Source: Lentisphaeria bacterium (GTDB lineage Bacteria > Verrucomicrobiota > Lentisphaeria > Victivallales > Victivallaceae). From it: 61,447 nucleotides of DNA. Position numbers and translations under genes: made by a program. How positions within the stretch are numbered: position 1 is the first letter of the stretch; each line of letters opens with the position of its first letter. The stretch spans positions 1 to 61,447 of the forward strand of contig JAFTJQ010000008.1 in NCBI GenBank assembly GCA_017456285.1, in the 5' to 3' direction. The notes below the pieces were generated by a model. The model was not told the DNA's origin. It saw nothing but the letters and a program-made list of their open reading frames with translations, and ran no database searches. Below are positions 1-501 of this stretch, one piece after another.

Positions 1-182
1 AAAAAGTTAATATTTGCCGAAATTAATTTAAATGCCAATACTTCCTCATGATTACGGCAATCAAAAACTATAGTCTTTCCTTTGTAAGCTTCTCTCATCT
101 CTTCTAAATTAGTAAGTCCTTGAGCGTAAAATTTTTCGTCCTCCTCAAGTTCAGGGAAATCGTGTTTATTGTACTTTGCCAT
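1..182 (-). CDS. Hypothetical protein, N-terminal part (cut by window edge)
   Basis: An open frame without a stop runs from the ATG at 182 off the left edge, giving about 60 residues that start MAKYNKHDFPELEEDEKFY. The start has a Shine-Dalgarno-like AAGGAG (minus strand) at 193-198, ten bases before the ATG. The visible part is acidic and then mixed alpha/beta-looking (KTIVFDCRNHEE). I do not recognise the family. The structured RNA and terminator at 211-335 lie directly upstream on the same strand, so the gene may be controlled by attenuation. The function cannot be judged from the fragment. Confidence 0.6.
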   Translation of the reverse strand, partial: MAKYNKHDFPELEEDEKFYAQGLTNLEEMREAYKGKTIVFDCRNHEEVLAFKLISANINF

Positions 183-210
183 CTATGATAAACTCCTTGC
201 TTTTTTGCGA

Positions 211-335
211 TAAAAAAAGAGGCACATTCTGAAAATGTGCCGAATCCAATGCCTACCACAGCATGCAACAATACACATAACCAGAACATGCCAAGACGAT
301 ACTTGGTATGTCCCAATTATAAACATATTGTTGCA
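211..335 (-). ncRNA. Structured leader RNA or sRNA ending in an intrinsic terminator
   Basis: Read on the minus strand, a long imperfect hairpin is followed by a terminator. The outer stem pairs 264-273 with 326-335 (10 bp, perfect). The inner stem pairs 277-295 with 302-320 (19 positions) around a 6-base loop. On the minus strand four of the inner positions are G-U wobbles and one is a C-A mismatch. On the plus strand those four become C-A mismatches, so the structure favours a minus-strand transcript. A second stem (234-241 with 221-228) is followed by seven U at 218-212, a typical intrinsic terminator. The ribosome-binding site of the truncated gene begins only about 14 bases after the U tract. 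This suits a riboswitch or attenuator leader, or a free small RNA of about 125 nt. The family is not recognised. Confidence 0.55.
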
Positions 336-432
336 ATCAATCTATTTTAGAAGTGGTAGTTCTGGATTCGACGATTTACAATCAGTTCATATCTCTAATT
401 TTTATCTATTTTTTATGTTAATAAATCCTTTC

Positions 433-462
433 GTTATAGAAATTGAGTTAATATAATCTCAA
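433..462 (-). promoter_or_regulatory. Weak promoter candidate for the structured leader RNA
   Basis: On the minus strand a TTGAGA box (457-462) and a TATAAC box (433-438) are separated by 18 bp, about 100 bases upstream of the hairpin. The -35 box sits inside an imperfect dyad (ATTGAG at 442-447, CTCAAT at 458-463). The spacing is looser than the 16 bp seen at most other promoters here, so this is a low-confidence assignment. Confidence 0.25.
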
Positions 463-501
463 TCTGAATAAATTGCAAATTTTAATTGAAATATATTTAT
501 T

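Follow-up and report, generated by a model that had tools for sequence, protein, structure and literature searches.

An apparently undescribed, widely repeated leader RNA family of gut Lentisphaeria with features of a transcription attenuator

Lysine-class riboswitches terminate transcription and contain loop-loop contacts. Plasmid systems of the pT181 and ColE1 type use kissing-loop attenuators and antisense control, and type III toxin-antitoxin loci of the ToxI type are arranged as promoter, structured RNA, terminator and gene. The purine class also includes a terminating riboswitch with a loop-loop contact, for example B. subtilis yxjA (PMC9756952), and one structured RNA of Lentisphaerae, Acido-Lenti-1, has been described earlier (RF01687; PMC2864571). 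Here we analyse an RNA encoded on the minus strand of the window, that is, the whole 61,447-nt stretch of Lentisphaeria DNA under study, which is the start of contig C24 of a 2.42-Mb genome. The original prediction gave this locus the architecture of a riboswitch or an attenuator of no known class, and the results agree: there is no Rfam match, pairing is conserved, and a same-strand gene lies close behind a U-tract. Judging from sequence comparison, we assign a probability of about 0.7 to the reading that the RNA acts in cis, as a 5' leader through which transcription of the next gene is attenuated.

The features of the window copy, in the order of transcription, are as follows.

473-478, minus strand: predicted -35 box TTGCAA, separated by a 17-nt spacer from the -10 box; conserved in own-genome copies
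450-455, minus strand: predicted -10 box TATATT; conserved in own-genome copies
423-431, minus strand: conserved AAAGGATTT, Shine-Dalgarno-like, with no start codon behind it (own-copy alignment)
214-386, minus strand: structured RNA core (covariance model, 162.9 bits, model positions 1-176 complete)
364-369, minus strand: helix A, 5' strand GAATCC, partner 242-247 (99.6% of cells paired; 6 of 6 pairs vary on both sides)
349-363, minus strand: hairpin H1, AGAA-CUACCAC-UUCU, loop L1 at 353-359 (double-change test with H2)
353-359 with 253-259, minus strand: helix B, the L1:L2 complementarity or kissing loop (99.7% paired; double changes in 7 of 7 pairs)
326-335, minus strand: helix C, 5' strand, partner 264-273 (97% paired; double changes in 7 of 7 pairs counted)
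302-320, minus strand: strand X and the 5' side of apical stem D (X:Y duplex energies)
281-292, minus strand: strand Y, GGCAUGUUCUGG, able to pair with X (about 303-318) or with T3 (221-232; Y:T3 median about 12 bp)
264-273, minus strand: helix C, 3' strand (fold and alignment)
249-264, minus strand: hairpin H2, AUGC-loop-GCAU, loop L2 UGUGGUAG at 253-259 (stem from double-change test)
242-247, minus strand: helix A, 3' strand GGAUUC (alignment pairing analysis)
221-241, minus strand: local terminator-like hairpin T5:T3, with T3 at 221-232 (sequence and fold)
210-220, minus strand: U-tract UCUUUUUUUAU (sequence)
3-182, minus strand: window gene, cut by the contig end and continuing on C1 (L007 2-331), 125 aa in total (overlap with C1)

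The fold predicted from these features is a junction closed by helix A that holds a long arm and two small hairpins, H1 and H2, the 7-nt loops of which are complementary throughout. The preferred reading of helix B is that these two loops kiss; alternatively, helices A and B would stack as one interrupted helix. The minimum free energy of the window region is -56.9 kcal/mol (z = -5.87), and none of 200 shuffled sequences was equally stable. The two-segment minus-strand hairpin of 29 pairs in the original prediction is present with one pair fewer: 264-273/326-335 forms ten perfect pairs in sequence and fold, and 277-295/302-320 is paired at 18 of 19 positions, including the four G-U pairs foreseen on the minus strand, but 290/307 is an A-C mismatch, so that the total is 28. 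The proposed intrinsic terminator (221-241) and its U7 (212-218) are likewise present, but they are not the sole possible terminator stem, and strand 221-232 is complementary, equally well, to 281-292 of the long arm (12 bp). A start codon was expected just behind the terminator and is found there (ATG at 182). The extent given for the element, 183-335, proved too short, with the 5' strands of helices A and B at 353-369 and the promoter at 450-478, and a plain hairpin plus terminator gives way to a junction that has a kissing loop and a terminator strand pairing over a long range. At 353-376 the plus strand looks like the 5' end of tmRNA; ARAGORN found no tmRNA, and Rfam gave no tmRNA match.

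A search of the window's genome with the region revealed further copies, and covariance model R1 was built from five own-genome copies. R1 found ten full-length copies in that genome and, among the matches listed, 45 matches in 14 of 61 genomes; with a second covariance model, R2, the RNA was detected in 55 of the order's 137 genomes and, more weakly, in a single further genome of the class and a single further genus of the phylum. In all, 151 unique copies were gathered, most from the 55 order genomes, with up to 13 copies in a single genome. An exact 20-base motif of the RNA 3' end occurs in 26 stretches among species genomes; every one of these with an RNA-model match is labelled Lentisphaeria or Lentisphaerae, many from ruminant gut, and three labelled otherwise have no RNA-model match. 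The copies found sit in genome contigs: phages and plasmids gave no match to the RNA, and IMG/VR returned nothing for one exact 20-base motif. In the window no Rfam family reached its gathering score, and 12 diverse copies gave only two sub-threshold matches, both to non-riboswitch families; TarB and Betaproteobacteria_toxic_sRNA were rejected as candidates, scoring far under their gathering scores and resting mainly on the terminator. A literature search of open papers found no description of the RNA family. We conclude that this is, apparently, an undescribed and widely repeated leader RNA family of gut Lentisphaeria.

Some copies occur as closely spaced repeats of the RNA and a small gene, with some of the genes decayed (G002:C33, C328 and C398; G098:C32, C77 and C80; G073:C60; G118:C43; G097:C9). 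In the window, a dispersed repeat at 499-700 adjoins the element and recurs dozens of times in the genome, frequently where contigs end. The L1 loops are distinct in 9 of the 10 copies of the window's genome; selection for distinct L1 loops within a genome was considered and rejected (14 identical pairs vs. 18.5 expected, P = 0.17).

Conservation of pairing, on which the original prediction had staked itself, is observed in related genomes by the covariance-model check. In alignment A6, which comprises 48 distinct copies, 90.6% of cells are paired under the proposed structure, both sides vary in 44 of 49 pairs, and the covariation score is 0.582 vs. 0.181 +/- 0.008 for shuffled and 0.07-0.13 for slid versions, in an alignment that favours helices A, B, C and D because the covariance model contained them. 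The pairings Y:T3, H1, H2 and pseudoknot a:a' are absent from the covariance model. Y:T3 alone shows double changes in 11 of 11 pairs on the alignment (37 cells vs. 15.0 +/- 3.1), and the H1 and H2 stems together show 39 double-change cells vs. 13.0 +/- 2.7 when shuffled, with the innermost position of H1 often unpaired across copies. Pseudoknot a:a', which would join the strand preceding A to the one that follows H1, scores 13.8 vs. 10.9 in the unaligned comparison, is weakly supported on the alignment and is poor in the window copy. G-U cells outnumber A-C cells by 143 to 68 across the 48 distinct copies, which supports the minus strand as the RNA beyond the window copy. We conclude that the existence and structure of the RNA are close to certain.

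The pairings X:Y and Y:T3 are mutually exclusive, and each is supported across copies. For X:Y, about 75% of the Y nucleotides of the long arm pair with X, and the duplex energy is -10.4 kcal/mol within a copy vs. -7.4 kcal/mol between copies. For Y:T3, unaligned complementarity is 25.6 within a copy vs. 18.9 between copies, with a length of typically 11-12 bp (most often 12 bp) and an energy of about -17.6 kcal/mol (median) or about -15.7 kcal/mol (mean); the stem abuts the U-tract directly in 126 of 145 copies, and a U-tract of 5-12 nt is present in 145 of 147. The local hairpin T5:T3 is below -5 kcal/mol in over half of the copies but is absent or weak (weaker than -3 kcal/mol) in 28%, and Y:T3 persists in copies that lack it, which makes Y:T3 the more general, conserved terminator stem. 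The sum of X:Y (about -10.4 kcal/mol) and the local hairpin (about -5.8 kcal/mol) is near the mean for Y:T3, so that by these energies the two states would be close to a balanced competition. In nested-structure folding the X:Y state is better by about 20 kcal/mol than a purely nested Y:T3 state, so that Y:T3 would require a pseudoknot or a kinetic route. Where the local hairpin is strong, both states would lead to termination, and for window-like copies with a good local hairpin termination is the expected default outcome. Computation thus establishes the fold, the exclusive X:Y and Y:T3 pairings, the U-tract and the placement ahead of genes; that the Y switch serves as attenuator logic is plausible.

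Transcription is predicted to start near 443 on the minus strand. Statistical support for the promoter over all copies is modest: only 44% of them score above the 95th percentile of shuffles. AAAGGATTT lies near the 5' end of the leader, and a motif resembling it is present in most copies. Pairing of a 5' AAAGG motif with the 3' U-tract was rejected (15.22 within copies vs. 15.23 between copies).

The next long open reading frame shares the strand of the RNA in 108 copies and has the opposite one in 8, whereas the upstream neighbours show little strand bias (49 vs. 35). The start codon lies a median of 36 nt behind the RNA, a gap that leaves most copies without room for a second promoter. The 119 downstream genes fall into 63 clusters, with families that include EcoRI-type methylase, Sel1, ankyrin, zinc-ribbon, SNase, GmrSD, M48 and trypsin-like peptidases, and sugar-nucleotide enzymes; as to a possible enrichment of defence genes, PADLOC matches occur both among downstream genes and among upstream control genes. 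At one locus (L089, G131:C150; about 1-155, minus strand) a group II intron (RF02001) sits just behind the U-tract. Terminator-type sites are a known target of class C introns.

The window gene probably encodes a stand-alone N-terminal piece, resembling only the N-terminal part of an EcoRI-type adenine methylase: its match to PF13651 (E = 5.6e-4) is below the curated cut-off, and it is 33% identical over 91 aa to one full-length methylase. In the window's genome the methylase is present only as such N-terminal pieces. Contig C1 extends the gene through a 135-base identical overlap; contigs C24 and C35 enter the same gene start, and C25 has part of the leader (window 1-182; L007 1-135; L009; L010). 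Occurrence of the same gene start on several contigs makes it probable that the gene has several copies, which the assembly has collapsed. The question raised at the outset, whether the RNA always precedes homologues of the truncated gene, is answered in the negative: among the 18 loci of the order that have the methylase N-terminus and room upstream, the RNA is directly upstream in 13. The five loci without it are L204, L207, L212, L213 and L215; in L204, L207, L213 and L215 a promoter-like stretch instead lies a short way ahead of the start codon, and the L212 stretch is too short to tell. The results indicate an optional cis module and not an obligate partner of the methylase gene.

According to the attenuation reading, transcription would start near 443, and the leader would fold with its helix A junction, kissing H1 and H2 loops and long C/D arm. 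Strand Y of the arm would then be either kept by X or captured by T3. Formation of Y:T3, or of local T5:T3 where present, followed by the U-tract would end transcription; with neither terminator stem formed, RNA polymerase would enter the gene about 30 nt farther on. The balance would be shifted by a signal (a metabolite, a protein or a folding condition). Termination, read-through, regulated switching and the signal that shifts the balance are what we infer from an arrangement that combines a structured 5' leader, a terminator stem with U-tract, a same-strand gene and an exclusive pairing that includes the terminator strand. Against the attenuation reading, no pathway is common to the downstream genes, whereas a metabolite switch usually serves one.

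The same promoter, complex fold and terminator, the local hairpin that in over half of the copies would terminate in either state, and the nucleases or restriction-type proteins among several neighbours would also suit a discrete, trans-acting small RNA that is always terminated and leaves the gene to leaky read-through in a type III toxin-antitoxin layout. We consider this unlikely: the downstream proteins are diverse, no one toxin family lies downstream, there are no tandem repeats, and the position directly ahead of start codons suggests cis control. The diversity of these proteins, together with the methylase homologues that lack the RNA, argues that the RNA is not the partner of one protein. 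Less probable again is a promoter and leader cassette, spread by duplication and recombination, that serves as a fixed expression header without regulated switching. The closely spaced repeats in G002 (C33, C328, C398), which is of the same genus as the window's genome, and in G098 (C32, C77, C80) and the own-genome copies with a common promoter sequence and differing genes fit such a cassette, but selection clearly keeps the pairing, including the exclusive alternatives, which a passive header would not need. A chance hairpin or a DNA-level structure, for example a recombination site with no RNA role, could draw on the existence of the inverted repeats as DNA and on the adjoining high-copy dispersed repeat (499-700), but it is very improbable in view of the compensatory changes in 44 of 49 pairs, the twofold excess of G-U over A-C on the minus strand, the conserved U-tract and the strand bias of the genes.

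We conclude that cis control by the RNA is likely. A bolder extension, which we offer tentatively and regard as possible but doubtful, is that the family is a new riboswitch-like class that senses one shared signal, possibly phage attack or DNA damage, and that ten or more leaders per genome jointly control accessory genes of Lentisphaeria, among them those for restriction-modification and nucleases. The family is of interest as an apparently undescribed RNA with very strong covariation, high copy number and a clear switch architecture, from a phylum in which RNA biology has hardly been studied; if switching is true, the accessory genes, otherwise uncharacterised, would form a regulon, and the RNA would be an orphan riboswitch candidate whose mechanism lends itself to direct tests.

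Compared with known systems, the Lentisphaeria RNA is distinct from Acido-Lenti-1, for which Rfam scans of the window and copies listed no match. It shares with the ToxI type the order of promoter, RNA, terminator and gene, but tandem repeats were not seen and no common toxin family follows. It shares with the pT181/ColE1 type the complementary 7-nt loops and control that would act through alternative terminator pairing, but both loops are in one molecule, and the copies are in genome contigs, with none matching plasmids. With respect to purine and lysine riboswitches, it differs in having no Rfam match to a described aptamer family, a 7-bp kissing loop of freely varying but compensated sequence, no unpaired core that is obviously invariant, and up to 13 copies per genome ahead of unrelated genes, but it resembles them in a junction closed by one helix, in two hairpins with a kissing loop, and in a strand common to the folded domain and the terminator, followed by a U-tract and then the gene.
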